From: Paramacrobiotus metropolitanus | Lineage: Eukaryota; Tardigrada; Eutardigrada; Parachela; Macrobiotidae | DNA: 64,000 bases | Assembly: GCF_019649055.1 (NCBI RefSeq) | Contig: NW_026570247.1 | Location: 558,001 to 622,000, forward strand | Reading direction: 5' to 3' | Part shown: piece by piece, positions 18,636 through 42,625 of the stretch | Layout of the letters: every line of letters starts with the position of its first letter | How positions within the stretch are numbered: position 1 is the first letter of the stretch | Program-made: the position numbers and the translations under genes | The notes under the pieces: model-generated | What the model saw: only the letters and a program-made list of their open reading frames with translations | Databases searched by the model: none | What the model was told of the DNA's origin: nothing

Positions 18636-20731
18636 ATGCACCTGCTGGGTCTCTTGTACCTTGCTGCCAGTGCCATTATAAACGGACAGATGCTCACTAC
18701 GAGTCAAACGACAACCATCACAACGACCACCTCCCGTAAGCAGATTATATATACACTGCAGCAAACGAATCCGTAAAGATAGCATTTGAATTTATACTGC
18801 TTTTAGTAACTAAACGCCTAAAACCATTTTTAGTCATTAGTGATTAGGGTAAAAATGTGCTTGTGCAGAATTTAAAGCAATAAACAGTTTAAGGTGAACC
18901 TTTCATTTGAGTATTACCTGATAGTTCGGCTTTTTTCCGCGTGAGAATCCCTTTCACTATACGCTTGTGCAAAGCAGCGCACGTGCAGAAAGTTCATTTT
19001 CGGATAAACCATTGCGGTATATTTGTACAACGACAGTCTTTTTCTCTGTTAATACTTAGACGTCTTTCGGATTCGGACGCTTTCAGGTCATGTATTCGCG
19101 TACCGGACACCCGGGACTCCATATTCTCTGCGTTGTTCCACATTCGACAACTTGAGAGTTATATAAACATCGAAAACTTGATAGTTTTACTGGTGTTATA
19201 TTGTACAAGCTTGTGCAAAAACAACAAGTATCACGTGACCAATTTTAGAGAATGTCATGTCTTTGTCATGTGGAAGAACGCGGAGAAAACCGTGTCTTTG
19301 GTGTCCGGTACGCGAATCCATCGTACGAAAATGTGCGATAATCGAAAGCGTCGAAGCAGAAAAAAAGCGTTTCTAATGCGACCAACATCGCAGTACAGAT
19401 AAACGGTGGGTTGTAGGAATTACACCAGCGCCTCTCCAGTGTTGGAGCTGTGACAGCCAGTATCCGCGCACCCAGCCGGCAGCCACCCGCCGCTGCCTAG
19501 CCGGTTACCTGACCGACGCCAACCAGTTAACCTGTCCGCCGGCATCCGTCTGCGGCATCCGTTACGACACGGTGAATCTGGACGAACTCCAGCAGATCGT
19601 CATGAGACGCGTGTGCCTAACGGTGGAGGAAGAAGCGCGCATTATAAGCGATTATCCCTATTCGCATCGGGAGCCGCTGGTGTGCGATAAATGGTTGGAG
19701 GACGCTACGGGCGAGGAAGTGTACAGGGGATATTCCTGTGTGTGCCAGGGGAAGCTGTGTAACCGTTTTTCCACTTATGCGACCAATGTTGCCGTTAATA
19801 ATGTCGGAATGCCGACGGAGCAGGTTGGTCGTTTGTGGCGGTCTAATGACCGGCTATCTGTACATGGTACCGGATTCGTGTACATTCACGGGAACTTTCG
19901 CCTTCACGCACTCCGGCTCCAAATACCTTTCGTGTTGTTCGCATCCCTTCTGTAGCTAAATGATTTCATACATTGCCGGGAATGCGCGACAAATTCCGTG
20001 AATGTACACAAAATTTGGTACCATGCATCCGGTCGCTTTTCTAAGCAAAGGTAATTTTCACCGGGAATTTTTGTTGCAGAGACAGGAGATTCCTCTTACA
20101 CCTAACAACGTAGGTACGTTAGCGGTTAGATTATAATCTTCGAGGAGTTCTGAAAAAATATAGAGGGGAAAGCCATGTCAGTCGAACCAGTTCACGGCAC
20201 TGCTGCCGTCATCCGGCTGGAGTGTGACGTTACCGCAGTACATGCGACTAAATCAGGCGCGGTACATAAGCACCATGTTCAGCCACAACGTAAAACTCCA
20301 GCCGGCTGACGGCAGCAGTATAGGGGAATGGTTCGGCTAGACTGCTTTTTCCCCCTATATATTGATTTAAAAAATCGGTAAAATCCTCCTAACCGATGAA
20401 TTAAAAGCGTTCACCATATTTTTCTTTTTCGGTAGATACATATGGCAATAACGATTATTACTATTACGACGACGACGAGGATGCCATGCAGTTGCGCAGC
20501 GGCGCCCTGGGCGGCGGCAGCATCGACAGTATAATGTTTGGCGAGACGATAGCTCCTGAGGATACTCCAGGGCTTCCGGCCACGCCTCCGGGAACAGGCA
20601 GCACCTCGCCGGTCAATGCGGTAGCAGGCGGCAGTCGCTTGGGTCCGTGTCTATTCCGAGTGGTGGCCATGACAGCCTGGTTGAGCGCCGTCACCGGTCC
20701 ATGGTCCTGGAGGCAACGGAGTGCGCAGTAA
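18636..20731 (+). CDS. LU gene A: ten-cysteine Ly6/uPAR-like surface protein, possibly GPI-anchored
   Basis: Exons 18636-18735, 19417-19823, 20080-20113 and 20436-20731 give 278 residues, phases 1-0-1. A signal peptide (MHLLGLLYLAASAIINGQ) and a Thr-rich spacer precede the LU domain. That domain has C-x2-C (CWSC), five further cysteines and the ending CVCQGKLCN, ten in all as in three-finger (Ly6/uPAR) domains. A 34-nt exon (RQEIPLTPNN) follows, then a last exon with a Tyr/Asp stretch (DYYYYDDDED), a Gly/Pro linker and a weakly hydrophobic C-terminus (GPCLFRVVAMTAWLSAV). Unlike paralogues B-E it lacks the split TM exons and acidic tail, so the C-terminus may be a GPI signal or a short TM; this is uncertain. 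It is the most diverged member: after the LU domain it has NRFS where the others have NW[YF]P. Confidence 0.75.
19851..20037. repeat. Short fold-back related to the 5.2-6.6 kb repeats
   Basis: The segment tacatggtaccggattcgtg (19860) and its mirror ccgtgaatgtacacaaaatt...ggtaccatgca (about 19998-20028) form an inverted pair. Both arms match the ends of the fold-back elements at 5203-6625. This copy lies in intron 2 of LU gene A and lacks most of the inner sequence. Confidence 0.55.
20158..20360. mobile_element. MITE-like inverted-repeat element in LU gene A intron
   Basis: The left end (atatagaggggaaagccatg) and right end (gctttttccccctatat) are inverted copies, and the inner arms match too: actgctgccgtcatccggct at 20209 against agccggctgacggcagcagt at about 20303. 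About 200 bp and non-coding. A related left arm occurs at 1128-1310, so it is a dispersed family. It sits in intron 3 of LU gene A, clear of the splice sites. Confidence 0.65.
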
Positions 20732-21796
20732 ATTTGTCGTGCACTGTTCTGCCGTTCTGTGTAATTGCTGGGAAGTAGGGTATAATCCATGATGAAGTGT
20801 TTCGTATTGTGGTTATAGTGGTTTTGTGGAGATTTCCTAGCCGGTTTGATTCGGTTTTGTGCACAGTTATCGTTATTGGCGTTATGCATACTGCAGAATT
20901 TAACCGAATGCTGCGTGCACATACGGCTGCGCAGCGTATTTACCCTGTATTTCCTGTATGTGCATACCCTAAAGGCTATTGTACAGTGCACAAGGGCGGT
21001 TAAATTTGCATCGAGCGCAGCGAGATGCTAATGTACTGTTAAGCCTTCGTCAAGAGCGTAAAATTTGTCTGACGGCACGAAGAGCGTACGTCACGCTTGT
21101 CCAGTTCCAGAAATCCAATGCCGTTTTCCAGTGGTACTGGTGCTCGTACCTCCTTAATGTAATAAACATCGTGCCAATCAACTCAAGCAGCAATTATTTA
21201 TTTCGCAGCAAACAGCTATTATTTAAATATTTATTATTATGCAGTCAACCTTTTCACATGTTCAAAATCATCAGACATTATTCATCCGCGCTGGGCTAGT
21301 AATAATTTTAGGCTACTGCTCAGTGCCAGGTCGCACACGTACGTAGTATTCTGTAATAGCTTATCATGTCGCACCGCAACAAGTAACAAACATAATAATT
21401 ACGTGCACACCTAATACATCGAACAATCTCCGTATAGGGACTACGCAGCGTAGTCTACGCGATATACTTATGCAACAACAACTGTGACAACAACAGCAAC
21501 AACAAGTACGCATCAAATCGTTGCAAATCTGACGCGAGTGTCCCGCGTCCAACGTCTAGTATCCCATCAATCGATGCATTTTAAAACCTGGGAGCCTTCG
21601 TTTTTAGGCCGTTTTACAGAAGTACGGTCTGGGAATTTTTCTGAACATTAATCACAAAAGGTCAGTCTGCAATGCACGCGATGGCATGTGATTTCCGTAA
21701 CGCTGTCCATGATCGTTAAAAGCCTGCTGATACTGAACCGACACAGGATGCAGTTACACTGGCGACAAGATGGCCAGCTGATGGCGACGACGTCCG
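20732..21796. other. Spacer between LU genes A and B
   Basis: No exon is supported. It holds the 3' UTR of A and the promoter of B. A short CAA-rich tract (caacaacaactgtgacaaca) occurs near 21473-21505. Confidence 0.4.
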
Positions 21797-24236
21797 ATGC
21801 ACGCGTGTATGTACTCGACTGTATCTTTGGCCTACTTACTCCTCCATAATTTAATCGGTGGAGCCTGGTGTCAGGCAGGTGCGTTAACATAGTCCCACGC
21901 TACAGACACGATTTGTTTAATGTTTACCTATTTAACGTACAGCCTTGGGCAACTGTACAGTACAGTGTGTTTTAATATAAGGGTCGCAGTCAAGCCTTAA
22001 AAAAAGTTCAAGTTCAAAAGAACAAACAATTCCATTTCAAGAACAAACGGGACTTTTGCGTGTGCTTTGAGGAGGAAAAACTAATTTCCCAAGTAGAAAG
22101 GATTCCGGCTAAAAAATAATGGAAATGAAGATAGTCACAGAATTACATAAGGCTTACCAAATAGAAAAAATGTTAAAAACCTAATTATTTTAAATTGCAT
22201 TTTTGAAAACAATTCCAGTTTCCAGTTCTAGTTAAGAACGATAAAAATACAAGACATCTGTTCATTTTATCATTTGCCTTTTAAATAAAATGCAGATGCA
22301 TGCTTCCTGGTGTCATGTAGAGATCATATACTTCCGTGTTTATCCATGTCATGTCTGTAAATCTACATAACCTCTTGTGTTATTTACCTAAATACATTCA
22401 CCTCTTCTACTCGTGTATAAACGCTACTGCTTCTCTCACAGAATATTCATGTTATTATTATTCTACGATCATGTTAGTGCTAATCTTATTCTCTGTTCCT
22501 TCACCTCAGTGAGCATTAAAGCACCTTTGGTATATCATCCGCGTACTCTCATCATTAGCAAAAGCGTGACGTATATCCTTGCCGTACGCTACGTTGCAAA
22601 ATACAGCACCACACCCTTGCTTGCCATAGGAGACATCTCGTGTTATTTTTGCGGCACATCATCCACATTGTATCCGGCGGCCAACATCACCGCCTGCCGC
22701 GGTGAGCAGCGCAACACGCCGGCGTACCGCACGTGGGCGTGTATGCCGGGGAATCTGTGCGGCATCATCTACTACCTCAAGAACCCGCCCTACTACTACC
22801 GCCAGTGCATCGGGAGTATGATAGCCCAGGGCATTGCCAGCCAGTATCCCTGGAGCGATCTGGAGCCGGTGGTGTGCCAGGCGGGGACCGCCGAGTGGCG
22901 CAATGAGGCGACTGGTGCCGCCGGGACGGACAACACCATGACGTGCATCTGTCAGGGGAAGCTGTGTAACTGGTATCCCGAGACCTCCATCCAGATCGCC
23001 ATGGATAATGCCGGCAAACCCAAGCCCCAGGTAATAACGCTGCGGTCATTTCATTTCACGGCATTTCATTTCGAAACTGTGCATTGGTGAAAACTCTATT
23101 CACCATTAAAGATGCGCGTTAAATAGTGTGTGAATTACGCCCTTCATGCAAGTAAACCGAGCTGGGAGTTATACGCTTTCATGGCCAGAGACAATTTATA
23201 CAGATTTTCCGAGAGTTACCTTAGAGTGAAGGTTTTTGGATGGCGAGTTACGCTGCAACTCGATAACTCGCTGTGGTATTTTTGCAGCGAGCACAGATTC
23301 CACCAATTGGCGGTAAGGATCTTTCACCCTACATAGTACATCGGGGCACGTGTGAACCGAGCACTCGGATGATCTTCTAGGCGCCGTTTCCGGCAGTGCG
23401 ACGAGCGGCGCGGGGAAGCCGGCAGCAGCGGGGTCCGGCGGTAACGCACCTCCAGCCAAGCGCTGGCTCTTCGTAACGCATTGAAATTTTGGCAGGTAGC
23501 GGGTCCCTGAATTCCGGTGCAGGAACCAGTGGATCCGGTGGGGCCGTGGGTGGCAGTGGCGGCGGTGATACAGCGGGTGGTAACGCCGCTGGCTCCGATG
23601 ACCCGGGTGCAGTCGGTAACGCGATGGATAGCGGGGACCTCAAAGGTGGCGGTACAGGATCGGCGGGTGGTCGAAGCGGGAATTCCACCGGGAACGGAAC
23701 GACCACGGATCCCGCTGCACAAGGTAACTCTGATGGTTCATCAGCAGCGAGCTTTCGGTCACTTCCTGCAACGAATTTCTCAATGTTTACCAATTAGCGG
23801 TGAATTACAGTATCCGCGTTGGCATGTTATAGTATGGTGATAGCTACTGTATTAATAGCCTAATAAAGTGGCATTTGCTGATTTGTCGGCAGGGTCCGGC
23901 TCCAACCTGGGACTGATTGGTGGAGTTGCCGGCGCCGTGGTACGGTGTGGTTACTGTCTTTCAACCTAGTCAGGCGTTAGAAATTTAGTTCTGATTAAAC
24001 GGTTTTAATGAAACGCGATTGCACTGTATCTGTAACTCTACTTGCCGGATATTATGCTTGTGAATTTACTAGCGGAACTTTGTGTATTGCTGTAATAACT
24101 GCTAAAAACTCCTAACCAATTTTTCCTATAGCTGCTCCTGAGTGCGGTGGGTGGCGGTGTATACTGGTGGCGGAAATCTCGCGCGGCGAAGAAGAAAAAA
24201 AAGGAGGGGGAAGACGAGGAAGAGGATGAAATGTGA
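21797..24236 (+). CDS. LU gene B: type I membrane protein with ten-cysteine LU domain, Gly/Ser linker and basic/acidic tail
   Basis: Exons 21797-21878, 22630-23030, 23288-23312, 23381-23440, 23496-23723, 23893-23939 and 24132-24236 join in phases 1-0-1-1-1-0 for 315 residues. Exon 1 is a signal peptide (MHACMYSTVSLAYLLLHNLI). Exon 2 holds the LU domain: CYFC, five further cysteines, the motif YPWSDLEPVVC, then CICQGKLCNWYP. The 25-nt microexon reads RAQIPPIG. Exons 4-5 make a roughly 95-residue Gly/Ser/Ala/Asp linker ending DPAAQG. The TM helix is split between exon 6 (LGLIGGVAGAV) and exon 7 (LLLSAVGGGVYWW), followed by a Lys-run/Glu-run cytoplasmic tail ending in Met. The fold is that of secreted or surface Ly6/uPAR proteins, which bind protein ligands or receptors; the ligand is unknown. 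Gene C shares every exon and phase. Confidence 0.88.
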
Positions 24237-25308
24237 TAGTTTAAGATACTGTTCGAGCAATCTTGGCTGGCAGATGCCCCGCTGTCCAGCATAGATTCAA
24301 CCTTGGTTTTCCAGGGTACTGTCGGTGTAGGCAAAAATCTTCTTTGATCTGTATTCGCACCTTGGTGTGTCTGTGTTCTGGCAAATTTGTAAACTTTGTA
24401 TGCGACTATGCCGACCACATGTTTGCAGCAATTTGATTTTATGTGGAAAGCGGGGAGGCGGTGATCGAGAGCGTATTCAGGTTTTTTTGTTTAAGTTGTT
24501 GGGTGGATGGTCCGTCCATATCGTGGTTAATTAGAGTACCTATTACCGTGACTGGAGCGTCATAAATTACGATTGCTACTCTTTTCTGTTGTTTTATTAT
24601 GAATGCTTGCTGCTGAGAATTGCACTGTGCCGAGCAGTCAGCGCGTCATGACAACAGATATAAATGTTCAACAATTTTCTGCCGCACTGTAATTTATTCG
24701 ACTGTTTACTGTATTAAATTTTGTCTTGCACATCAAAGGGTCATATCACCGTACAGTACAGTAGTCATAAAGTGCGTACGAGTAAACTCCAACATAAGCA
24801 CTACCAGCGGTACGATCTGCAGCAGCAGGTCACATAAATCAACAGAAGCACTGTACGTTGGTAATTAAAGTGCTCACTTAAAATTTCGTACCATAAGAAT
24901 CACAGGATCAAAGCCTATAGGGAGTCATTAGATAAAGTTATAGTGAGAACTTAGTACTGCACTTTTTTATTTAAATTCTCGTAGTTTTCTTGATTAATAC
25001 TGTATCGTTGGATATGCACAAAGCTGCTGAGTAAGTGCGCTGTAACCCTTTCCAGTTTCCACCGCTTGTATCACGAATAATTGTCGTTTAACTGTAGCAG
25101 CTGCCGCTGACACCTACATCCTGGGTTGCAGTGATCGCTCGACGCAAGCAAGATACTGTTAGAACCATTTTGATATCATGAAATTTTGCTTGAAAACTGG
25201 TAGAAGGATTCCATATTCTTCGTGCTACTGCAGATGACAGGACGGTAGAATCACGGTCCCCGGACAAACCAGCATGACGTTGTGGTGCGCCGATAATGGA
25301 TATGTCGG
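24237..25308. other. Spacer between LU genes B and C
   Basis: It should contain the 3' UTR of B and promoter of C. No exon or repeat element is recognised. Confidence 0.4.
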
Positions 25309-26944
25309 ATGCTGGTATATACGCACATCTTTCTCGGCTACTGGCTCCTCCATAATCTAAGCGGATCCGTACACTGTCAAAGCACAGGTTAGACATTAAA
25401 AGGTTAAATGAGGCGCACCTCAGCTTAAAAGTAGACACACCACAACGGGAAGAATCGCGTTAATCAAAAGCAGAACGGCGGCTTGCACGCTTGCACTCTG
25501 TACTAGTGACAATTATTTGTGTGCAATTTTTTTCACGGAAATTTTAGTTTTATTACACAAGTATACTTAACAAAGTCATAACCTCATTCCCGTTAAGCTA
25601 ACTTAAAGGCAGCACACACACCTTCCTTCTCAACCATATCGCTAAAGAACAGAAACTGCATTTCCCTGCTGAATCTCGATACCAATTCCCTGGCGCAAAA
25701 ATTACATTATCGTACAACTGTATCTATCGAACTAATGGGTTCCCTGTCATGTCTGACAGAACTCACTGGTCCGGATTGTTACGGCTGCACCGCCACCGGC
25801 TCCTCCTCCATGACAGCCCACATGCTGGCCCTTTGCAAAGCCGAACAGCGGAAAGTCGAGAACGCCGGCTACGTGACGACGAAATGCTCGACCGCAGAGA
25901 TGTGCGGCATCATCTACTACAACACCACGTACCCCGACCCTACCTTCCGGCGGACCTGCATCGAGGACGGACGCCCGCAGGCCATCCTCAACCGGTATCC
26001 CTGCAGCGATCTGGAGCCGTTGGTCTGTCAGGCCGATACACCGAACGGCCGGTTCAGCGGCACGCTGTACTGCGTTTGCCAGGGGAAACTCTGCAACTGG
26101 TTCCCCGACGCGTCTATCCGCATTGCTGTCACTAATTCGTGGAAAGACAAGGCACAGGTATCCTGCACGCCTCCCAAAAGTTATACACATTGTAATTTGT
26201 GCCCTTTGCGTAGAGAGTGCAAATCCCACCCATCAGCGGTAAGCGCAGCCTATACACTGTCGCGAGCGTCATAATTACTGGGTGACCTTTAGGATCCGTT
26301 GTCGCCAGCAACCCTCAGCCACCGGCATCGGGGTCCGGCGGTAACACCGTCCTGCGCGATCATGTCAACCGCTCGATTAACGCTACGCTTTGCAGGTAGT
26401 GGCTCGGGTACTTCCAACGCGGGTTCCGGTAGGTCTCCGAGTGCCTCCAGCGCTGGAAGCGGGACCGGCAGCGGTGCTGGTGGCAGTATAACCGGAAATA
26501 ATCCGGACAGCTTGGGTGGCGCTGCGGGGGACGCCGATAACGCGGCGACCGCTGATGGGAGCGGCGGGGTTCCCGCGGATAAAACCGGCGACGCCGGCGG
26601 CGCAGCGGGAGGGCGGGCGAAGGGCTCTGCGTCCGGGGGATCGGGTGCCGTGAATGGAAGCGACACGGGAAGCACAGCAAGTGGTAACCCGTTAGTTACA
26701 CTCAGCATGGCGAAATATACTTAGCTGTTATTGCTTTATCGATAGGTTCGGGAACGAACTGGGCGTTGATTGGAGGGATTGCTGCCGCTCCGGTAGGGTT
26801 CTCTGTCGTCGTGTCTGTCATAGACTTACAGAGTTGTGATGGTGACAGGTGGTGCTTGGGTTGGTCGCTGTATGGTGGTGGCACAAGTCGACCGGCACCG
26901 CGAAACACGCCGCAGAGCACGATGAAAGTGAAGAGGAGTTGTGA
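25309..26944 (+). CDS. LU gene C: paralogue of B
   Basis: Exons 25309-25387, 25760-26157, 26214-26238, 26293-26340, 26396-26683, 26746-26792 and 26849-26944 give 326 residues with the same phases as B. The signal peptide (MLVYTHIFLGYWLLHNLSGS) shares the WLLHNL/YLLLHNLI core with B, direct evidence of recent duplication. The LU domain has CYGC, five further cysteines, YPCSDLEPLVC and CVCQGKLCNWFP. The microexon reads RVQIPPIS. The Gly/Ser/Ala linker (about 113 residues over two exons) is the longest of the set. TM halves are ALIGGIAAAP and VVLGLVAVWWW; the tail is short and ends in SEEEL. Introns are only about 50-60 bp after exon 2, making this the most compact copy. It converges on gene D across a 0.7-kb spacer. 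Confidence 0.88.
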
Positions 26945-27663
26945 GCGATGACAGGGCTTAGTTTCCCATCAACAGGCTCCTGACTGTCTCTTACTCCAGC
27001 GATACTGGTCAGTGATGCACTTACCGGCGACATTGGTCAGCAACAGGTACAAAGCATAAAGATGCTCTTATCTTTTTTTTCCGCAGGGCTGAAAATGGAC
27101 ACCCAATTTAGGGAATTTAGGCGCTTTGGTTGAAGATGCAATGATGGTTTGATGTCACGGATATTTTGTGTATTGGTTCAGTATAATCTCGGCTCGGCCG
27201 GTACGCCAGAGTTCTTATCGTAAAACACTGGCATGAGTACTCGTACATTTGATGCGTCACCCTATGAATGGATAGGCAGTAACTGTGTGTGAAAATTTGA
27301 TTTGTTAATTGCAGTCACTGGACAATGGTTCCACAGTTTCCTCTGACTGTCGCATAATTTTAACGAAGTCTCTCAAGAACCAATCTGTGCAAAGCGCTTT
27401 GTGCACAGTTCTCTTAATTACAGCACCATCCGGCAAAGGATGTGTAAGCAGATTGGAACGTAACAACCAAACATTTCACCTAGTTTTTGACAGCGCCAAA
27501 CCAACCCAAACCAACCAACCCAAACAGCTCGGTACAATCAACATTCCCCAAAGGAATCCACTTGACAGTCGCGGACGCGTAAAAACAGCATGACAACAAC
27601 ATAGCAACCTACCGACAGTGACTGATTCAACATAATCAGTACGCACACGGCAGCGTGATACAA
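26945..27663. other. Convergent spacer between LU genes C and D
   Basis: Both neighbours end here, so it should hold two 3' UTRs. A pyrimidine/A-rich run (ccaacccaaaccaaccaacc) occurs around 27500-27520. No exon is supported. Confidence 0.4.
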
Positions 27664-30186
27664 TCAGATTTCGGCTTCTTCGCCCTCTTCATCCTCATCT
27701 TCCTCCTCCTCTTCCCGGCGTTTCTTCTGGTGTTGGCGCCAGCACATACAACCACACCCAACCAGTAAGGCGACGACCTAAACGCGCAGAGAAAAAGCGT
27801 TGATATCAACCGTTTCTTGGGATGTATCGCTGAATTCGTACTAATGCTCCGGCGATCGCACCAACCAGTACCGGCGAAATCCGGGATTCTGCAAGAAGCA
27901 GCATGTTAATATCGTGACGGATCACCGCGGTTCATTGCTAATATATATGGGCACACCGGCAATTTGCGGACCGTTACCTCACTGACCGACATCTCGCTGA
28001 TGACGACTTCTCGCTGACTAACAATTTATTGAAACGACAACTCGATGACCGACAGATTGCTGAACATCGCGATTTCGCCGAGGACATCTGATGACTAAAA
28101 ACAACTTTCCGAAGCACATCAGACATCTGATGACTAAAAACAACTTTCCGAAGAACATCAGACAGGCCTAAGAAAACCTTAGAAGGCCTAAGAAAAAACA
28201 CTATTAAGCCTTAAATGCCCAGCAAATAGCTTATAAGAAAAAAAACCAGACAGAAAAAATTTAACAGACTTAAGAGCCTAAGAAACTAAGAAATTCTAAG
28301 AAAACCAATCTAAGAAACTCAGGAATGTAGGAAACTCTAGAGAACCTGAGAAACGTAAGAACATTAGAAACCACTAAGACAGCCAAAGAAACAACACTCA
28401 ATACGTTTAGAACCTTTGAACTGTACCGATAAACAAGCTGTCGATCAACGAAATAGTTTCTGCGAGAATTCGGGCAGCGAAATTGTCGAAAAGCGAACTG
28501 TCGGTGAGTAATCTGTCGGCCAGCAAGTTGCATTAATCAGCAATATGTCTGTACGCAAATTTTCGGGGAGCGAAACGGAGATCAGGGAAGTGCCGTGCTA
28601 CCCAGTACCCATATCGGCATATCAGCGCGCTATGTATGGTCAACCTTTCGCAGTGCTGTCGTTGTCGGTTCCATTGGCGGCGCCGTCACCACCACGCTGG
28701 CCCGTTCCATCTCCTGCCTCTGCATCTGCAAATAGACATCAAGTTGTTGAGAAAAGAAAAACTCAGTGAATAAGTAATAACTCGTTACCAGTGGGCGCGG
28801 TCGGCATCGCTGGAATGCTTCCTGAAGAGCACATTTTGGGATGTCAAGTTTCGTCTACGTTTTATTGCGCAGCGCTGCGTCGATAAAATTACCATCGCGG
28901 CTTACCGTTGGCATATGGAATGGGCCGGCGCTAGAAAAGGAAAGTCCAACGTTATACCAGTGATAATGCGCGTACGTGTCAGTTTTGTCGAAATCTCAGA
29001 GCATGAGTTTGATATATCTCTTTGCGCTTGCACTTTCTGGAGTTCTGGCTGATCAGCCAGAACTCCTAACCGAATATTGCGCGCAAAATCGGTACAAAAG
29101 CCAAATGATGTATCCAAACGCCGATGTACTGCAAATCCTTTAATTAACCAGCATAAAAACAGTGCAGGTAAACTATTTTAGAGTTCGCAAAGGCGAAAAA
29201 CTTTCGTGTTCACGTGCTTGACATCTACTTACCTTGGACCTTACGGACCAAGACCTTGGACCTTGGACCTTGGATTTACGGACCTTTTGGAGACGGTACT
29301 AAAAAGCTAGTAGAAACGGTTGGAAACGGTATAGCGACTTCAACTGGACAAAAGCGGGCGAAAGAGTTCTTTAAACAGCGAATATCTATGCAAATACAAC
29401 GGGGAAACGCGATTTGTGTAATGAGTACGATCGCGATCAGGTTAGCATAGAGGAAGTGTTTCTTTTGAAAACGGCGTTTTGTTGTGGTGCATAGTTTGTA
29501 CTCGTACCATGATACTTATTAAAGGTTCAATAACCACTTACCTTGGACGGGTCTTTACCAACATTATCCAGGGCGATCATGACGGAGTCCAGCGGGAACC
29601 AGTTGCAATACTCACCCTCACAGAGACAGTCCACGGTGAACTGCAGATTGGGATCGGGGTCGACCGTTGGTCCGCAGACCAGCGCCTCCGCCGGCGAGAA
29701 GGGATGCCGGCTGGCGATCTGCTGGCCCTCCGCCTGCGGCAGGCAGCCCCGCTGGAACCACGGCTTGCCGTTCTCGTCCAGATGACCGGGTTTAGTGGCG
29801 TAGCTAATGGCACAGTAGTCCTTAAAGCAGCCGGCAATCTGCAGGTCCTGCGGCGCCCGCTCCTTCTGGTTCATCTTGCACAGGGTCGTCTCTTTCGGCC
29901 AGCCGTTCGGTCGCTGGGTGTTGCATTCATAGCAGAGCACCTGGCTCACATCTGCCAAATAACGCAGCAGATACATACTTCCATTTTTCTCATATTTTGC
30001 TCACTTTGAGTGTACGTTCTTATATTTTGCTCACTACGTGTCCAAATTTAAGTATTAAGAAATCTCAGACCACACTTTGCAGAAGGATATCATGTAATAC
30101 TAACCTTGTGAAGTGCCGAAGCCTCTTTCAGCTTCTACCCAATGTATGGTAATCATGCTGCTCACTAACCAACAGTGGATCAACAT
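27664..30186 (-). CDS. LU gene D: type I membrane paralogue with short linker
   Basis: Exons (minus) 30186-30105, 29951-29542, 28930-28906, 28821-28789, 28725-28645, 27888-27842 and 27777-27664 give 263 residues, phases 1-0-1-1-1-0 as in B and C. The signal peptide is MLIHCWLVSSMITIHWVEA. The LU domain has CYEC, five further cysteines, HPFSPAEALVC and CLCEGEYCNWFP. The microexon reads RRPIPYAN. The linker is short (27 residues, Gly/Asp/Asn) with a possible N-glycosylation site NGT. TM halves are VLVGAIAGAL and VVALLVGCGCMCW, then QHQKKRR and a run of Glu/Asp. Intron 2, the one after the LU exon, contains ccttggacc repeats that recreate the exon-2 donor; intron 5 is filled with aagaaa and gacga-type repeats. 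It is the shortest of the genes with split TM exons. Confidence 0.87.
28095..28165. repeat. Tandem duplication, about 40-bp unit x2, in an LU gene D intron
   Basis: The unit catctgatgactaaaaacaa followed by ctttccgaag occurs twice, at about 28085 and 28124, with a single difference. The surrounding intron (27970-28530) contains degenerate units with gacgac/ctcgctgac and ctaagaaa motifs, suggesting repeated local slippage. Confidence 0.65.
29226..29285. repeat. ccttggacc repeats duplicating an exon-2 donor site
   Basis: Five copies of a ccttggacc-like unit lie in LU gene D intron 2. On the minus strand the last copy reads gtccaaggtaagt, identical to the real exon-2 donor at 29537-29548. It may have arisen by duplication of the donor region and could act as a decoy or alternative donor. 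Confidence 0.55.
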
Positions 30187-31725
30187 TCGCAGCGTCCATA
30201 CAGCGACAGCATGTCCCCCAACGACACAGCTCTATCTTATGATTAAACAGGCCAGTTTTCCATCAGACTGGCACACGGTACACGCAGATGCTGTCTGCCC
30301 GTTCTTCGCCATTTAGAAACGGGGGCTTGTTTTAATGCAAAATCACAGCGTCTTTAGCTCGAAACCCTTGAGTGATCCTTTCTCTCAATCTTTCAGTCGA
30401 GTTATTTGGCCTCTTTACAATTCATAAGAATAATACTTTCCGGGATTTTATTTCTCAATATGTACAAAGCGAGCTTCGCTCAACAATTATATTCAAATGA
30501 AGAATTTGTCCCAATTTACATGAGAAGGGACTGTGCACAATACACTCATAGCATTACCACGCATAATCTCCAAACTTAAACGTTGAAACAAAAAACAAGT
30601 CGAGCGACTCTCGCCCGTTCTCAAATACAGTTTATTTCCAATCTCCTTTAAGGTAACAATGCCAGTCTACTTAATAATAGAATAATACTTAATTGTCAGA
30701 ATATGCATGAGTTTCAGTTTCAGTCATAGACATCGTCACATCATCAATGAAGTCGCTACAGTTTCGTTTTACATAACATTAATTTTCGATTTGGGCCAGT
30801 CTAATTTTCTGCAGCATTGCTGCTCTATTTTTATTGTTACAGCATAGCAGTCGTGCTTACAAGTCAGCAGAAAGTTAGAATCGTACTAAGCAAAATGACG
30901 GCGAAAGCGTCTAGAAATAGTGTATTTTCTCGCTTTGAGCCATGTGCCATGGCAACAGGAGCAAAATTGTTTTACTCGAAACACTATGAAACATTTTTAT
31001 TTTTTATTTATTAAGCATACTTATATATTTCACTAGTGTTTTATTGTTATGTTTGCTGCACTAATTTACAGGACTATGGCGTACGCTGTCAGTTTACGCA
31101 ACAACATCAACTTCTCGTAAATCACTCATTTTGCCTCGAATGGTGTATGTGTTCAGCATTGCTATTCTAGATGCGAAAGGTGTAAGAAATGTAAGGTCAT
31201 CAGTGCAGCCACCATTACGGTTAACAGCGCCGAGGAAACACCGGATCACTGGCTCAGTTTATTGTTAATTCAGCGAAATCAAGATTATTTGAGCACCTTG
31301 AGCTGGATATTCTGCAGTCCCTAGTTCGAAATATATATTTTCGATATTTAAATAGCTTCCTTTTCTCCAGCGCGTCAGCTAAAACTGCTGTATTTCCTTA
31401 CAGTTGACGTTTCGTAACATGCGTTTTCTCACTAAAGGGTGCCTTGTACAGCTCGTAGTTACAGATTAACACAATGGTTTTGCTACCGTAACTACAGACA
31501 GTCGTACAAGACTAATGACCAATAACCTGCTCACCATGGTAAACATTAACGACACAAGTAAAATTTCCGCGGAATTCCCCGGTAATCCAGTTATCTAAAG
31601 CACAGCGTTCCCTGTGTAAGGATACCGCTTAAAAAGGATGAGATAACGAACGAAGTGCTGCTAATTCGGCCAGCGCCGGCATTTGCTCCACAAGGATATT
31701 GACGAGTCGTTTTCCTTGATGCAAC
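30187..31725. other. Spacer between LU genes D and E
   Basis: Both neighbours are on the minus strand, so this holds the D promoter and the E 3' UTR. No exon is recognised. Confidence 0.4.
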
Positions 31726-34700
31726 CTACAGTTCCTCGCTTTCTTCCCCCTCTTCATCTTCCGGTTTCTTCTTTTTCTTGGCATTCCGCGACTGATACCA
31801 CCAGTATCCGCCGCCACCGATCAAAGCCACGGCTACCTAGAGAACACCGTAGTGTCACACTGTCATCGCGATGGAATAGGTACTAGGGTACTAGGGTACT
31901 AGGATTAACAAGGCAATTTCCGGGCCGCTTGTCACTCTGTCAGTTCCTGCGTAGTATCATTAGAATCCTCAGAAATTCTATAATATCTCTTCAAAAATGA
32001 AATCGAAGTCATCCAACATATCCGCGCTGGTTTCTCTGAAATCTCTAGATCCACGTTCTTATTTGGGAATGATCTGACTTTGAAGAAAATTATAGGATTT
32101 CTGAGGGTTTGAATGATACTAAGCACGAAACTGATCAGAGTGAGAAACGGTCGGGAGAAATCCCTTGTACTACGACGTAAGTGATACCGTCGCAGTACGA
32201 TCACAGTAATAAACCGTTCTGCCACAAATTATCGCTTACGGTACCACCGAGTGAATTAATTTTCTTGCATACAGCCAAAGCGTATCGAGTCAATGGCACA
32301 AAACCGGTTTTTCAAGAGCAGACGAGCAAACAACGGTTGGAAAAATGTCCTGAATTTTATGCGTTACTGTGTGACACATATTATAACATTCGGAGAAACT
32401 CCTTTACATTCTTAGGAACCAAATGTGACCGCCTGCTACATTGAGCAGGACTATACCGCGCCGATTATCTTACCACGCCGCCAATAATCCCGGCAATCAG
32501 ACCCACGGATATTCCCCCACCTGCAACCATAACAGCCTACGTTCATCCAGTAAACAACTGGAGTCCTGTCCAACGAAAAGCGCTGGTAAACTAGACCCGG
32601 GTGCTTAGTAAGTCAACAGCGTACATACGAGTCATTCGGGTTTCTCAAAACTGAGACATTCGGAAGCAAGAAAAACACAGCCATACTTCGCGATTGCGTT
32701 ACTTATTCAGCTAGCTCATTCGAAAAAACAAACAAACACACAGCCTGATTCGCACACAAGGTTCTAACTGATAAGAGCGCGCTGTTCGTTACCTTGCGCT
32801 GCCGCATCCGCATCCGTTCCATTGCCCGACGTCCCGTTGGATCCGGTCAGCGTACCGACACCTCCCTTACCATCGCCACCCTTCAGCCCGTCACTTCCCC
32901 CGGTTCCATCGCCACCGCTGTCGTCGCCCCCCGCTGCGCCACTCCCGCCACCGGACGCGTCGCCCGCTCCCGACGCCGCCGTCAGATCACACGGTCCCCC
33001 GCTGGTGGTCGCTGAAAAGCACCGTCAAGAGCTGCGCGACGCAGGGTTTGCTTGATTGACTGCTCTACTGATTGGTAAAGCGCGTCAACGAACACTTTCA
33101 CATACAATATGTCCTTTTCGACGCAGCACAGGGATTATTCTAGGCCCGTTGCGTTCGAGAGTGCGCCTTACCGATAACCGCGTTGGGACTGGGTAGGCTT
33201 CCTAAAGGTCAAGCGAGTGCTGACATGAGCTGGTTCCGACTGAACAAACGCGGAATACTGCCGCAGGGCTTACCGTCGATATTGGGTATGGGCTTGCGCT
33301 GCAACGAGCACCAGTGGTTTTATCATAAATACTTCGGTTTTTTTCATACTTCGGTCACTTCAAGTACAGGTGTTCATATTTCCGTCACCTTCAATTGGTG
33401 TTGAAATTTCGTGGCACACAAAAATACCGGAAATAAAGAGTTTTCATAGTAAAAACTTATACTCATGCATTTCAAAAATCGATTACGTAATTATTAGTGA
33501 TTTGTACAAGCTGGTACATGAGGTTATTGATGCAAGCGCATCAACAGGCTGTTTTCTAATTGTTCATTACTTAAAGCGTAATGTGAAGTTTGTCTTGAAA
33601 ATTGCTAAAAAATTTCCATTCTTTGGCTTTTCGAATTTGTCACAAAAATAGCGACAATTCCAAGAAAATGGAGCAACCATTCTAAGAAACCAGCATAGGT
33701 TCTCGTGTTAGGATTTTCAGGTGGTTTTGCCGGTGGGTGCAACCTTACAGCTCGAAAAAAACCTCGGTGGAACAGTGAACACCCAAATCGGAAATGCGCA
33801 TCGGACAGTTTTTTGAAGCGGCAAACCGTTTTACCGTGTATGAGTGAATACGCACCTTAGATTTGTCCACTTTGCTATTATTGACGGCGATCCAGACGGA
33901 TTCCTCCGGGTACCAGTTGCAGTTCTTGCCCTGGCAGAAGCATGTATGCGTCCGGATCGCTCCGGTCTTGGAGTCCGTCACCCCCACCGTACAAATCAGC
34001 GGCTCCGTGGCCGTAAAGGGATGATTGGCCACGGCCTGCCGGCAGTAGGATCCGTGCAGGCACGAACGCCAGAAGCCCGGATGACCCGGCACCGCATCGA
34101 AACTGAAATACCCGAACGTCAGACTGCAGACCTGATCCACGAAGCAGATATTCGGCGGCTGTGTGCCGTCGTTGCCGGTCTGGGTTTTCCGGCAGTTGTC
34201 CGACATCTCCGGTGATCTGTGTATACCCTGCGAAAATCCGTAAGTACTCGCAACGGTCAAGGATGCTATATGAGCAACTCGTATGGCATTGTCGGTCAAT
34301 GGTGGATTTCTTTGGCGGACTTACATCGGTCGTGTTGCACCGGTAGCACGGTACGCCTTTTACGGACGGATCTGCAACGCACCAATCATGCTCAACGAGG
34401 AAATACCAGCTTCAAGTATGAATTATGGGAAGCGGAGCCGGTACAAACAGTAAACCCTGCCGATATACACCTTATAAACCAAAGCACCTGAAGTTGGAAA
34501 GTAATTACCTTGGAACTTTAAGCGGCTCTTCCCGTAGACTATTGCACAGGTGGAATCATGTACACTGTACAGTGAACCCGCCTCCTTATTAATCTTCATA
34601 CACAGTCATACACTTCATCTTCAACGAAACCGAAAATATCCATGCAAACTGACCTGCTAGTACAATTAGGCGACGATCGAAACAGCTCAGCCCAGAAGCG

Positions 34701-35358
34701 ATTTTAACGAAACATAGGTGTTTGTAAATTCAAGCGTTTCCTAGTACCTTTTACTTTTTTGCACTGCCCAACACGTTCACTTTAAAACGGCTGATTAACA
34801 GCCCTAATCTCAAAGCGAATGCATATTGTTTGAGCGACTGACTATGTTGCAGTTCTCTGTCTTGATCAGGCGTTAGCGCAGCATTATCGGGTGCTGCCCA
34901 TTCTGTTTCTAAACCCGATTTAAGTTTTCGTGCTTCTTTCGCTCGTAGGGGACGTTCTAATAAGCCTGTGATCTGGCCGCACAGTGGACTGCTATTTCTC
35001 GAACTCGGTAATCGGAATTATAGCCGCTTCGTGACCTCGCGTCCTTTCCAATCTGAACAGTCGTCTGCTCCCTGGAAGCGCTGAATATAAGCGATTCCAG
35101 TGGAGATGCTTCAAGAGCATCGGCTTAATATGCTGTAGCTTGGCCGTGGACTGACGCACGGATAGTTCTGGCTGAATTCACCACCGCAGCCTTACCGTGT
35201 AATCCTGCGTACCAGCCCCAAACTCCCGACGGCTTCGTAATCGTAGATCCCTTGACGGTCGGGTAGGGCCCCGGGTAATCGGTCATCTGGGCCCGACACA
35301 GCCGGGAGACGACGAGACCCATCACCGTCAACCACGGCCACAACCGCTGGACCGACAT
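31726..35358 (-). CDS. LU gene E: type I membrane paralogue with one extra N-terminal exon
   Basis: Eight exons (minus) 35358-35196, 34371-34325, 34227-33856, 33298-33274, 33201-33172, 33011-32793, 32520-32474 and 31836-31726 give 337 residues, all phases consistent (1-0-0-1-1-1-0). The signal peptide is MSVQRLWPWLTVMGLVV, followed by about 30 Pro/Gly/Thr residues unlike the paralogues. The LU domain begins CYRC in exon 2 and continues in exon 3, with HPFTATEPLIC and CFCQGKNCNWYP; one additional cysteine (GSYC) makes eleven. The extra intron after CYRCNTTD is unique to E. The microexon reads RKPIPNID. A 73-residue Gly/Ser/Asp linker contains NGT sequons. TM halves are VGLIAGIIGGV and VAVALIGGGGYWWY, then five lysines and a Glu-rich tail ending in EEL. 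Transcription diverges from the kinase gene. Confidence 0.88.
31877..31903. repeat. Short tandem repeat (gtactagg x3)
   Basis: Three head-to-tail copies of a nine-base unit (gtactaggg) lie within the last intron of LU gene E. Microsatellite-like. Confidence 0.75.
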
Positions 35359-36337
35359 GGAACAGCGAGCCTCTATGGCTTGTGCAGTGATCGCTACACC
35401 CGCGACGACAGACAGGGTCTTTCCGCGACGGCAGCGTCGTGTTGGCACGGCATCGTGGCCACTGAGGCGTTCACATACCCGGCAGCAACATCTTCAACAC
35501 AAAATCATTTTATGTGGAACGTAAAGTGTGTGACTGTGGGCAACTCCGGGACACGAATTGGTGGGCCCCAGTACGGCATGAAAGATATTTATAAATGACT
35601 TTCAAAATCTCTACATAAAATTAATTTTATCAATTTCTATAAAATTAATCATGTTAATTTTATTTGTTGTACATGTTGTTGCATAGAAGTACTGTATGTT
35701 GTTTCAGCTTCCGTTTTGGGTGGTGTTGTTGTTGGTTGTTGCATTCATCAGAGTTTTGTAAAGACTAAAGAGCTTCCACTGCATCGTTATTGCTAGGTAA
35801 CACGATGACTGATTGATCAATGATGTAATCCACTATTCATACAAAGAATTAAACCTGATAATAAATTTATACAACCCATGTTGCGACAAGTACTTCCTTA
35901 CTGATTTTTACCAAGTACAAAATCACAGTACTGTAATGTTCCATTTGTTTTAAAAATTAGCAAGTGCTTGACAAGAAAAATATGAAGCTTCTTTGATGGT
36001 AAATTACAGGACTGTAGCTGTATTCTGTAGCTGTAGAAGTATTCCTAATTACGCCACGGGTACCGTATCTGTCTCACACTATGCATTAATAAGTCGATAA
36101 TCAAGTTTTCAAAAATCCTATGATTTGCCATTATTGAGAACTATGAAAACATCTCCACGATAATTTATTTCTTGCCATTTCCGGTGCATAATTTGAGTGC
36201 TGTTCTGGTTAAGGGAAGAGCTTCCCCTGGCACGACATTAGCGCATTTAACGTAGTTCGGGAAAATGCTGGAGTAGCAAGCTTTTTAACGCTCTTCATTG
36301 ATAACAATATCAAAAGGTCACCGCCGACTATCTCACG
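35359..36337. promoter_or_regulatory. Divergent intergenic region, LU gene E / kinase
   Basis: LU gene E starts at 35358 on the minus strand and the kinase at 36338 on the plus strand, leaving 979 bp for both promoters and leaders. No TATA box stands out and no coding exon is supported. A bidirectional promoter is possible but unproven. Confidence 0.4.
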
Positions 36338-39136
36338 ATGACGACCCCCGCCTACGAGCACAAACCCTCCCTCCCGGAGGTCTTCCCCCTGCGTCGCGGG
36401 ACCGTCCTAGCCAACGCGGACTTCCAGACCCTGGAGGTGTGGGAGGAGGACGCCGGGAAGGAGGCGGACCAGCAACCCCACCCCGACGACTACACCACGG
36501 CCGACGACTACGACGTGGACGACAGCCTGCGCTACACCACCCTCACGGCGGCCCGCCAGACCGTCGGCGACCTGTGGGACCGGCTGCGGTGTCGGCGCTT
36601 CTACCGCATCGAAGGCGACAAATTCTACCTCATCCGGACACTCTCCGTCCGCCGCGGCACCATCATCGACATGTGCCAGCACGCCGGCCATCCCTACATC
36701 GTCAAGCGCATCCCGATTAACACCGGCGCCGACCTGGTTAAGGCCGCCGACCAGTTCAACAACCTCCGCAACTACGATCATCCCCACGTGTGTTTCGCGT
36801 ACAAGGCCGGGATCGGGAACGCTCCCACCTGGCGGAATTGGAGTCGGACGGAGGTGCGCTTCCTTCTCCCGTTTATCAACGGGCACCTGCTGTCCGTGGA
36901 GCTGGCCGACCGCCGCCGGGAGCAGCGCTACATTCATCCGCGGCGGATTGTGCGGTTGCTGCGGGAGATGCTGGACGGGTTGTTCGAGATCCATTCGCAC
37001 TCGTACGGGGACGCCCACCGGGATATCCGGCCGGAGACGATTATGATCCGGACACCGGACGACTGGCCGGTGCTGCTGGATCTGGATGCGTGTACGCCGG
37101 CGGTGATTATCACCACGGATGAGGAGGAGGTGGCCAATATGGTGGATATTTCGGAGAATGTCACGTCGCCCTTCTACCGGGCGCCGGAGACGTACGATAT
37201 TAAGCCGGAGTCGGTGATTGACGAGCGGACGGATATCTGGGCGATGGGGTGTACGCTCTTTGCCATGTGCTTCTTCCGGTCGCCCTTCCAACCGCCCGGT
37301 GAGTTGCTCCACAATTTCTTGGGCAATCGGTTAACGCATTTGCTTATCACTGACCTAAACGTCGGTGACCTTTATTTATTAGCATCATCTTTTTAACTTG
37401 CACGCGATGTATGTAGTTTAATTTTTGTGTCTTCTAATTGTACCTCATAATTACAGTAATTAGTACATAATTACATTAGTCGTTAATTCTTTATCGTTGT
37501 TTATTTATACTGTAATCGTCGCTGATTTAATATATATTAATATTAAAAATAATTAAACATATATATTATTAATAAAATTTTTTATCAATTTACTAGTTTT
37601 CTAGGTTTAATAATCAGTTAGTTACTTTCGTTGATATATGTGCTGCAGATAATCAATCATAAAATATGTCTCTATTTGTTACTGTGTAATTTACAGCCGT
37701 CTTGATTTTTTTATTTTTTAAATAAGTTCATTATTAAGCAACCGTCGTCAATTTTCTTACAAAGTATACATATTTAATTATTATCAATCGGTGTTAATTT
37801 TTTAGTCTTACTATTATAGCCATGATTAATCGTTTTCTAGTTATGCTGGTACTGTAATTCTTTAAAACCGTCGTTGATTTTTGAAACCATGCTGTTTGAA
37901 TCGGGCGCAGTTGGACTAATCGTCGGATGAACATTGTAGTTGTTCGGCAGATGTGGACGACACCTTCTCCCCGCTGAACATCCCGGAACCGGTACGCCAG
38001 GCCGCCAAAGACCTGACCCTCAGTCTGACCGCGGCCGATTTCCTGGACAACGTCATCCCGGCGGATTCGCCGTATCCGCGGCAACTCCATGAATTCATGG
38101 CGCGCATGTTGAGCGTGGACCTCAACAGTCGGCCCACGACGGAGCAGATCATCCGCGAACTGGACGAGATGATCGCGGCGCTGGGCGGTCCGGACCAGCC
38201 CATCTGCGTCAAGTATCCGTGGATTAATCCGGCCGCCGACGAGATGGCGGCCGATGTCATCAAGCGGCGGACCTTTGCGCCGCGGAAGCTGCAGTTTGAT
38301 GAGATGTACCCGGAATTGGCGGGTTATGTGTACATGGAGGACCGCGCCAGTACGTCTGCCACGCACCTTTTATCAGTGACCTTCACGATTCTGTCTTCAT
38401 CATTATGTATAACATTTCTTTTATATAACGTTATTCATCAAAAGCGAATTGTCACGATAACCTTTACGATTTTATATATGCCGTTGCGTTCATATACAGT
38501 TTTACAAAAATAGAAAAACAGTTTGTCAGTGACCTTTAGCTTTTCTACGCATAATTTGGTTTATATAATAATTTTGTACAAGAAAGCGTCTTTTCAGTGA
38601 CCTTTAAGATTCTATGGTATGTATAATTCGTTTTATATAACGTTTCTGTAGGGAAAAGAAGTTTTCCAGTGACCTTTGGGTTTTATACGTAGTTGTACAG
38701 TAGTTTGAAGTGTGAACGCTTCTGTTTATACAAAGTACCTATTCATCGGTTTTCTGTTATCAATGCAGGGTCCTTTCAAGCCGATTCTCCAAAGGATCAG
38801 ACCGCTGGGATCCTAGAATCCCTGCGACTAACCGGCGGGAACTTCCTCTTCAGTAAATCCCACCCGAACCCGTACGCCGTCAAGAAGGAATCCACACGCC
38901 GCAAGTCCCTGTTGGAGTCCGTTGTCGGCGCGGTGACCGGCCGCACTGAGGGAGCGAGCGAACGCCGGGCGTCGGTCGCCTCGGGACAAAAACCCGATAG
39001 GCGCGTCACTCTGGAACCGGCGCAGGCGATCGCGGCGGAAAAAACCCCGGAAGCGCGCTTGCACGTCCACGGGGAAACCGAGATGTCCACCATCGTGGAA
39101 GATGCACAGGAGCACGCACTTACGATGGAGACGTAA
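36338..39136 (+). CDS. STK16-like protein kinase with non-canonical catalytic motifs
   Basis: Exons 36338-37298, 37951-38349 and 38769-39136 (phases 1, 1) encode 575 residues. The kinase domain covers about 85-430. The C-lobe resembles the STK16/NAK-related group: FYRAPE, then IDERTDIWAMGCTLFAM. Conserved: VAIK-type Lys (IVKRI, K123) and HRD Asp (D229). Altered: no glycine-rich loop is evident before K123; the catalytic loop reads HRDIRPET, so Lys becomes Arg and the metal-binding Asn becomes Thr (T234); the DFG motif is DLD (248-250). A weak or inactive kinase is therefore possible. The first 80 residues are acidic and unrelated to known domains. After the domain a basic Ser-rich tail (STRRKSLLESVVGAVTG) could be regulatory. 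No signal peptide or TM. Intron 2 carries tandem repeats. The long frames on the opposite strand are shadows. Confidence 0.82.
38370..38690. repeat. Degenerate tandem repeat in kinase intron 2
   Basis: A unit of about 70-75 bp starting cagtgacctt and containing tttatataacg recurs at about 38374, 38453 (diverged), 38527, 38595 and 38667. Each unit resembles a pyrimidine-rich splice region, and the array fills nearly the whole intron. Confidence 0.65.
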
Positions 39137-41647: not shown

Positions 41648-42625
41648 ATGCCGAACTCCTCCGGTCTGATGAACGCCAGCCTGAGCGTGGCCATCCCGCG
41701 GTACGGCGGATGGAACGCCTTCAGCGTGTGCGAGACCCTGGCGGCCGCCATCGGGATCCTCCTCAACGGCCTGGTCATCCTCGTCTGCCTGACCAACAAG
41801 CGGATGCACACGCCCTTCACCGCCTACCTCCTGGCCGTCACCGTCTCCAACTTCCTCATCCTGTGCGTCTTCACCCCGCTGGACGTCATCAGCTCGGTGG
41901 TGACCCTGCGGCAGTACGGCCGCCTAGCGTGCCACATCTACCTGTACTTTGCCTACGTCTTCGGCGGGGTGCTCTTCAACGCCCATGTCCTCATCACCGT
42001 CAATCGCGTATGGGCAATTACCTTCCCGCTCTCCTACCGCAACCACCACAGCCTCCCGGTGGCAGGTGCGCTGGTGGCCGGGATGGTGGCCTACGTCCAC
42101 GCGGTGTGCCTGCCGGTGGTGGTCATCGACGCGCTGTACTACCGTCCGAGTTTGACGCGCTACGGCTGCGTCCTGAACGTCGAGGCGCAGCTGACCTGGA
42201 CCATCTGTCTGCAGTTCATCATCTACATCTTCCCGGTGGTCATCATCGCGCTGGCGTACCCGTTCCTCTGGTACAAACAGCGCCAGCGGACCACCAAGAA
42301 ACAGGGAAACTCCACCGACGCGTCGCTTAGTGAAGCGGCCTCCCTCACCGCCAAACCCCCACCGCGGGCGCCGGCCAAACGCCAGCACACCAGCGGGTTT
42401 ATCGTCCTCACCGTCGTGACCGTCATCATTATGGTGTCCTTCGCGCCGACCCAGATCGTCTTTACCGCGTCCTTACTCGGCGTCCAGCGCGGTCTGGAGA
42501 TCCCGGGGATGATCGCCGCGTTCCTGCAGCTCATCCAGCCGGCCACGGACCCGGTGCTCTTCATGCTGTGCCTGGGAAATCTGCGCGCCGGGGTCGGCCA
42601 GCTGTTGGGGTGGAAACGGGCGTGA
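41648..42625 (+). CDS. Rhodopsin-like GPCR 1 (orphan, intronless)
   Basis: A single exon of 325 codons starts at 41648 after an AT-rich leader; the reading frame shows uniform GC-rich coding. Seven hydrophobic helices are visible: N-terminus with two sequons (NSS, NAS); TM1 with GILLNGLVILVC (the conserved Asn of TM1); TM3 ending in NRVWAITFP where class A receptors have DRY; TM5 before KQRQRTTKK; TM6 with FAPTQ instead of CWxP; TM7 with DPVLF replacing NPxxY. A Cys in TM3 (RLACHIY) and one in loop 2 (YGCVLNV) would form the canonical disulfide. It is an orphan receptor at the plasma membrane; the ligand is unknown. GPCR 2 (46825-48422) shares the RVW and GCxVNV signatures, so the two are paralogues. 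Confidence 0.88.
   Translation: MPNSSGLMNASLSVAIPRYGGWNAFSVCETLAAAIGILLNGLVILVCLTNKRMHTPFTAYLLAVTVSNFLILCVFTPLDVISSVVTLRQYGRLACHIYLYFAYVFGGVLFNAHVLITVNRVWAITFPLSYRNHHSLPVAGALVAGMVAYVHAVCLPVVVIDALYYRPSLTRYGCVLNVEAQLTWTICLQFIIYIFPVVIIALAYPFLWYKQRQRTTKKQGNSTDASLSEAASLTAKPPPRAPAKRQHTSGFIVLTVVTVIIMVSFAPTQIVFTASLLGVQRGLEIPGMIAAFLQLIQPATDPVLFMLCLGNLRAGVGQLLGWKRA

Follow-up and report, generated by a model that had tools for sequence, protein, structure and literature searches.

Invertebrate relatives of the cluster described here are described as lipid-anchored: all 45 Drosophila LU (Ly6/uPAR) genes are predicted to encode glycosylphosphatidylinositol (GPI)-anchored proteins (PMC6600238, in its accessible portion), and GPI signals occur in all twenty Ly6 proteins of a fluke (PMC8763315, likewise in part). 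The transmembrane LU kind named in the accessible portion of the former review is the TGF-beta receptor family, and in the archetypal LU gene described there, the domain is encoded by two exons that meet at the tip of loop 2 and as a rule lie between phase-1 introns. The window analyzed here is a 64,000-nucleotide stretch of the tardigrade Paramacrobiotus metropolitanus (contig NW_026570247.1, positions 558,001 to 622,000); between its positions 18636 and 35358 lie five adjoining paralogous genes for ten-cysteine LU proteins, A, B, and C on the + strand and D and E on the - strand. On balance, the data favor a tardigrade family of type I single-pass membrane proteins within the QVR-like (Quiver/Sleepless) part of the LU superfamily, in tandem here and dispersed elsewhere in the genome, forming an expanded branch in which a stalk and helix replace the GPI anchor. 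The family is genuine and well formed and belongs to a superfamily already known; what is unusual is its anchor.

Exon models were assembled from stop-to-stop frames and three-frame views, with putative signal exons sought by hydropathy and phase. They bear out the five neighboring genes, strands, and coordinates of an original prediction made on this DNA, and confirm that observation as a whole:

Gene A, 18636-20731, + strand, 278 residues: signal exon 18636-18735; LU exon 19417-19823; 34-nucleotide microexon 20080-20113 (RQEIPLTPNNV); stalk exon 20436-20731, with YYYYDDDED.
Gene B, 21809-24236, + strand, 311 residues: signal exon 21809-21878; LU exon 22630-23030; 25-nucleotide microexon 23288-23312; stalk exons 23381-23440 and 23496-23723; 47-nucleotide first membrane half 23893-23939; second half and Lys/Glu tail 24132-24236.
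Gene C, 25309-26944, + strand, 326 residues: signal exon 25309-25387; LU exon 25760-26157; 25-nucleotide microexon 26214-26238; stalk exons 26293-26340 and 26396-26683; 47-nucleotide exon 26746-26792; tail exon 26849-26944.
Gene D, 27664-30186, - strand, 252 residues: signal exon 30186-30105 (the weakest); LU exon 29951-29542; 25-nucleotide microexon 28930-28906; short stalk exon 28725-28645; 47-nucleotide exon 27888-27842; tail exon 27777-27664.
Gene E, 31726-35358, - strand, 327 residues: signal exon 35358-35196; LU exons 34371-34325 and 34227-33856, separated by an extra phase-0 intron; 25-nucleotide microexon 33298-33274; stalk exon 33011-32793; 47-nucleotide exon 32520-32474; tail exon 31836-31726.

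All 26 introns (three in A, five in D, six each in B, C, and E) are GT-AG with agreeing phases, and a stop codon closes each of the five frames. Genes B to E share one order of exons and phases: a phase-1 intron separates the signal exon from the LU domain, and a phase-0 intron separates the latter from the microexon; phase-1 introns lie on either side of the stalk (one or two exons), and a phase-0 intron parts the first membrane exon from the last exon, which codes the second half of the helix, the tail, and the stop. The phase series common to the cluster is 1,0,1,(1),1,0, of which gene A has the first three only; the additional intron of gene E falls inside the LU domain, after the second cysteine. 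The microexon, coding R-x-[PQ]-I-P, is 25 nucleotides long in all four of B to E (34 in A), and the first membrane exon is 47 nucleotides in the same four. Because these phases and exon lengths are common to B to E, and because the same stalk, 47-nucleotide exon, and tail recur at the unlinked places C15 and C36, the resemblance is more than chance. The archetypal two-exon LU layout, a typical rather than obligatory feature, is absent: A to D have a single LU exon, entered in phase 1 and left in phase 0. A signal peptide and a ten-cysteine LU domain had been claimed for every gene; the domain is present in all five, and the signal exons of A, B, C, and E look convincing, those of B and C each supported by their likeness to the other (AYLLLHNLIGGAWCQ / GYWLLHNLSGSVHCQ), while that of D is merely plausible. 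The long intron of gene D also contains, at 27974-28210 (- strand), a repeated stretch coding SDVLRKVVFSHQM.

The five LU domains, aligned, have pairwise identities of 26-45% and 17 invariant columns, comprising the ten cysteines and R58, P74, E79, G110, N114, A124, and N127 (B numbering); C and E have one extra cysteine each. Ten cysteines with a C-x2-C start and a C-N end are found in all five cluster genes and, by eye, in the dispersed heads C15 and C77b; C36, whose open frame is without the first cysteine pair, was left out of this count. The signatures first reported for these genes were recovered by eye in the alignment: the ending C-x-C-[QE]-G-x-x-C-N and [YH]P-x-[ST]-x-x-E-[PA]-x-x-C in all five, and NW[YF]P in four (B to E).

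The Pfam QVR model (Quiver/Sleepless, PF17064) matches all eight family heads tested, always below its gathering cut-off of 27.3 bits: A 22.9, B 20.4, C 21.0, D 22.8, E (with its first LU exon) 18.9, C77b 20.0, and C36 17.1 bits, with 18.3, 18.0, and 16.5 bits for the full-length C15, B, and E proteins. E-values were 0.00018-0.0011 for A to D, 0.0032 for E, 0.0014 for C77b, 0.011 for C36, and 0.005 for full-length C15; the fragment of gene E without its first LU exon had no QVR match. In view of these matches, though under the cut-off, the statement in the original prediction that the combination matches no familiar Ly6 family is not supported. Other Pfam matches, such as TMEM154 and CD34 for the C15 protein and DMAC1 and Peptidase_M73 for E, fell below their cut-offs, covered only stalk, helix, or tail, and were disregarded.

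Like Quiver/Sleepless proteins, the family has a ten-cysteine LU domain, one per protein, and the QVR model is nearly wholly covered in A to E, C15, and C77b; unlike them, since they are GPI-anchored (PMC4735452, in its accessible portion), B to E have a stalk, a membrane helix, and a charged tail, and their QVR scores stay under the cut-off. QVR being the sole Pfam family found in the heads, the proteins could be channel or receptor accessory subunits in the Quiver/Sleepless manner, their fingers binding a nicotinic receptor or potassium channel of the same membrane and altering its trafficking or gating, with a helix in place of the GPI anchor; Sleepless itself acts on Shaker and on nicotinic receptors, with loop 2 required (same source, same portion). 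Scores short of the cut-off, stalks of up to about 118 residues, which do not point to a tight in-membrane partner, and several diverged copies, which suggest varied ligands, make such a role unlikely.

A QVR profile search of the genome returned 44 exon-level places at E <= 1, two of them above the cut-off and four corresponding to window genes A to D. Six other loci among these places (L012-L017) served as a sample for the spacing of the last cysteines, with a pattern in which the two cysteines could be adjacent or separated by one or two residues, so that C-C was detectable. The C-x-C spacing had been taken as distinctive, yet C-x-C-x4-C-N also ends seven of seven non-family LU-like frames examined (three in L012, three in L013, and one in L016, with none from L015 or L017); an eighth frame, from L014, was discarded as not being an LU domain. 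Being common among other QVR-hit loci of the same genome, this ending is ruled out as a family mark. The proteins of L012, L013, and L016 (of C178, C199, and C85, respectively) share it with the cluster but differ in that several of their frames end, by eye, in a short hydrophobic stretch of the GPI-signal type, and four lie outside the family in the gene tree described below.

The structure prediction that had been proposed as a check was run on the B head, together with the other window heads (E minus its first LU exon). The AlphaFold2 model of the B head has a predicted local distance difference test score (pLDDT) of 80.6 and a predicted template modeling score (pTM) of 0.76. Foldseek comparison of this model with the PDB gave 474 matches at E <= 10, with GPIHBP1, TGF-beta receptor II, and uPAR at ranks 3-6. 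When VIA was applied to the best 1000 from Foldseek, 48 chains reached Z >= 2; the 38 matches listed (Z 3.3-5.7) are by title all three-finger proteins or complexes holding one, and include uPAR, GPIHBP1, ectodomains of TGF-beta, BMP, and activin receptors, C4.4A, CD177, Prod1, Lynx1/2, and three-finger toxins. For one entry, 5tx4, the title as shown gives the ligand only, and families missing from the list were not taken as evidence. At these modest scores, the prediction supports a three-finger/LU fold for the B head.

TGF-beta and BMP type II receptor ectodomains among the VIA matches (Z 4.8-5.4), together with the LU-plus-single-helix layout of TGF-beta receptors (PMC6600238, accessible portion), would suit a BAMBI-like ligand trap or co-receptor for TGF-beta-type ligands, in which a kinase-less LU protein with a helix binds ligand or receptors and dampens signaling. 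However, uPAR and GPIHBP1 score equally in the fold comparison, and the Pfam scan of the family heads gave no TGF-beta receptor ectodomain match. The 20-24-residue tails have no kinase-like part: in B to E the stop codon follows at that distance past the helix, and full-length B and E have no Pfam kinase match at E <= 1. A long stalk is also unlike TGF-beta-type receptors. The TGF-beta, activin, and BMP receptors and BAMBI resemble B to E in that an LU ectodomain is carried by a type I protein crossing the membrane once, and differ in the kinase or kinase-like part, the long low-complexity stalk, and the lack of any sequence match found, and a BAMBI-like role appears improbable. GPIHBP1, among the top fold matches, likewise combines an LU head with a disordered charged segment, and the YYYYDDDED of gene A recalls its acidic tyrosine-sulfated extension (PMC6600238, in the same portion); GPIHBP1 is nonetheless GPI-anchored and its acidic segment is N-terminal, whereas that of gene A follows the LU domain.

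B to E share an architecture of signal peptide, LU head, microexon, low-complexity stalk (about 35-118 residues), intron-split membrane helix, and a charged tail 20-24 residues long, and the linker, helix, and charged tail originally described for four genes were indeed found in these four by a downstream membrane-exon scan and the exon models. Gly, Ser, and Ala abound in the stalks of B, C, E, and C15; the stalk of D is short (35 residues as cut for the Ser-Gly test) and rich in Asp, Asn, and Gly. By eye, G-x-x-x-G occurs in the helices of B, D, and E and not in those of C, C15, and C36. The helix is followed by a basic block (weak in C) and then an Asp/Glu run, after which the tails of B to E close with one hydrophobic residue (-DEM, -EEL, -AEI, -EEL); the tails of C15 and C36 have no such end, and a PDZ-ligand role for the B to E tail ends is only a thought. 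As read from the gene models, a hydrophobic helix followed by mostly charged residues argues for rejecting GPI anchoring in B to E. The C-terminus of gene A has a modestly hydrophobic stretch followed by polar residues.

Ser-Gly pairs were counted in the stalks of B, C, D, E, and C15 against 5000 shuffles, with A (one pair) and C36 left out. They are enriched (35 vs a mean of 20.5, P 0.0002), as are, weakly, pairs flanked on both sides by an acidic residue no more than three places away (4 vs 0.94, P 0.02), and this would fit part-time proteoglycans whose stalk sites carry glycosaminoglycan and whose LU head, chains, helix, and short tail cooperate like syndecan. Against this, pairs with any acidic residue nearby are not enriched (11 vs 9.4, P 0.33); D has no pair at all, and the excess is singly clear only in B (P 0.005) and C (P 0.006), with 0.05 in E and 0.26 in C15, and may merely reflect Gly-Ser repeats; C, C15, and C36 are, moreover, without the G-x-x-x-G of B, D, and E, all of which makes the proteoglycan explanation doubtful. 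N-glycosylation sequons in the stalks are at expectation (8 vs 6.1). It would be a long shot to go further and propose a tardigrade-lineage LU class that exchanged the GPI anchor, in a single event, for stalk, split helix, and charged tail, with glycosaminoglycans on the Ser-Gly stalks and heads diversified for different partners; such a syndecan-like LU proteoglycan would be one not described in other animals.

The family extends beyond the window. With the C, D, and A heads as queries, the five window genes came first, followed by weak matches at C77 and C15 and, with A only, at C36; the C15 head found C15 itself, two places in C77, and one in C36 with E below 1e-38, and also shorter pieces in C77 (one of them interrupted by three stops), C15, and C36, though the weakest matches may be fortuitous. 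C15 (L011) and C36 (L031) have the stalk, both membrane exons (the first of 47 nucleotides), and a tail that is basic and then acidic; their KKPIP piece runs on into the stalk exon with no separate microexon, and the intron that precedes the 47-nucleotide exon seems to begin GC, not GT. The copy at 9.5 kb of C77 looks decayed, because its LU frame contains a Gly-Ile run and its first membrane exon has a donor reading AT in place of GT. In the 6 kb following the copy at 19.4 kb of C77, no membrane exon of the B to E type was found. The claim of local expansion thus stands as regards a tandem cluster of five, and a strictly local expansion is ruled out by the relatives at C15, C36, and C77. The C77 copy at 19.4 kb is followed by frames that look, by eye, like a mobile element, and loci L009-L011 and L031 hold dispersed relatives with decayed copies; third-position GC is 0.41-0.53 in the dispersed relatives vs 0.69-0.82 in the window cluster.

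The gene tree comprised 12 heads (A to E, C15, C77b, C36, and four other LU proteins of the genome), leaving out C77 at 9.5 kb and the short pieces. The eight family heads stand apart from the four other LU proteins with 95/93 support, and the dispersed three (C15, C77b, and C36) group at 85/94; the five window genes form a single clade in just 28% of 200 bootstrap trees. Nonsynonymous and synonymous divergence (NG86 dN/dS) was calculated for eight pairs, with B/C15 not computable. It came to 0.52/1.41 for B/C, 0.62/1.15 for D/E, 0.89/0.78 for B/D, and 0.70/0.79 for A/B in the window, values unreliable at this divergence, and to 0.24/0.71 for C15/C77b, 0.33/1.19 for C15/C36, and 0.36/0.88 for C77b/C36. 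B/C, C15/C77b, and C15/C36 look constrained and B/D and A/B do not; the pairwise check suggested for the LU domains was thereby run, and it supports no conclusion on diversifying selection.

A QVR-like transmembrane LU family is thus indicated by the ten cysteines and C-N end in all five genes, QVR matches in all eight heads, the fold model of B, common phases and exon lengths, the architecture of C15 and C36, and the split in the tree. Several points weigh against it. The gene models are predicted from genomic sequence alone, and the signal exon of D is the weakest of the five. A membrane exon of the B to E type was sought downstream of gene A (20700-22400) and none was found, so that not all five genes have the anchor. 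QVR scores of 16.5-22.9 bits are under threshold; a phmmer search of the B head against the PDB gave a single match, at E 1.5, to a protein that is not a named LU protein. Foldseek returned nothing for the B model at E <= 0.001 in the PDB, its top two rows being unrelated bacterial or phage proteins that are not LU proteins, and the VIA Z-scores are all < 8, a range for which the tool cautions that common arrangements may match. Branches are long for A, D, E, and one outgroup in the tree, the tool's warning on long branches includes D with E, and some forks are open. Finally, the function proposed for the head rests on analogy. Of the original interpretation as a whole, the LU proteins, the local expansion, and the unusual stalk, split helix, and charged tail are retained, and the distinctive spacing and the lack of a close known family are not.

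By analogy with other LU proteins, those of the B to E type are probably non-enzymatic surface binding or adhesion receptors. Like LU domains in general, the head would use its fingers to bind an extracellular or neighboring-membrane partner; the stalk would keep the head clear of the membrane, the basic block after the helix would stop transfer, and, the tail having no enzyme, any signal would pass via the partner or through clustering. The paralogs differ most, by eye, in loop lengths and stalks, and therefore may have distinct partners or work in distinct cells; a role of the cluster in recognition or immunity is an inference. An LU family anchored by stalk and split helix would show the anchor to be exchangeable, invertebrate LU proteins being otherwise described as GPI-anchored (PMC6600238 and PMC8763315, accessible portions). 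The cluster also makes available a defined set of tardigrade candidates for surface receptors, and tandem, dispersed, and decayed copies in one genome make a small system for following family growth. A literature search, with most subscription papers outside its reach, found no title or abstract describing these genes, and the accessible portion of PMC11191345, on P. metropolitanus, does not contain 'Ly-6', 'uPAR', or 'quiver'.

An Rfam scan of the window gave no match. Lipocalin searches aimed at tardigrade SAHS proteins gave one clear protein, which is a fatty-acid-binding protein of the ordinary type. Adjoining gene E is a protein kinase domain (36305-37393, + strand; Pfam Pkinase, E 7.8e-15) that reads, by eye, HRDIRPE and LDLDA where the usual catalytic motifs are expected. 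A retroelement at 48819-52769 (- strand) encodes a reverse transcriptase (RVT_1, E 6.6e-14) and an integrase of the tyrosine-recombinase type (Phage_integrase, E 9.5e-7); it is DIRS-like by eye and overlaps a GC peak at 48-52 kb. Three frames on the + strand, at 41609-42622, 46789-47613, and 57071-57772, encode rhodopsin-type G protein-coupled receptors (7tm_1, E 3.9e-23, 6.9e-21, and 2.7e-19, respectively), of which the first two are alike by eye.

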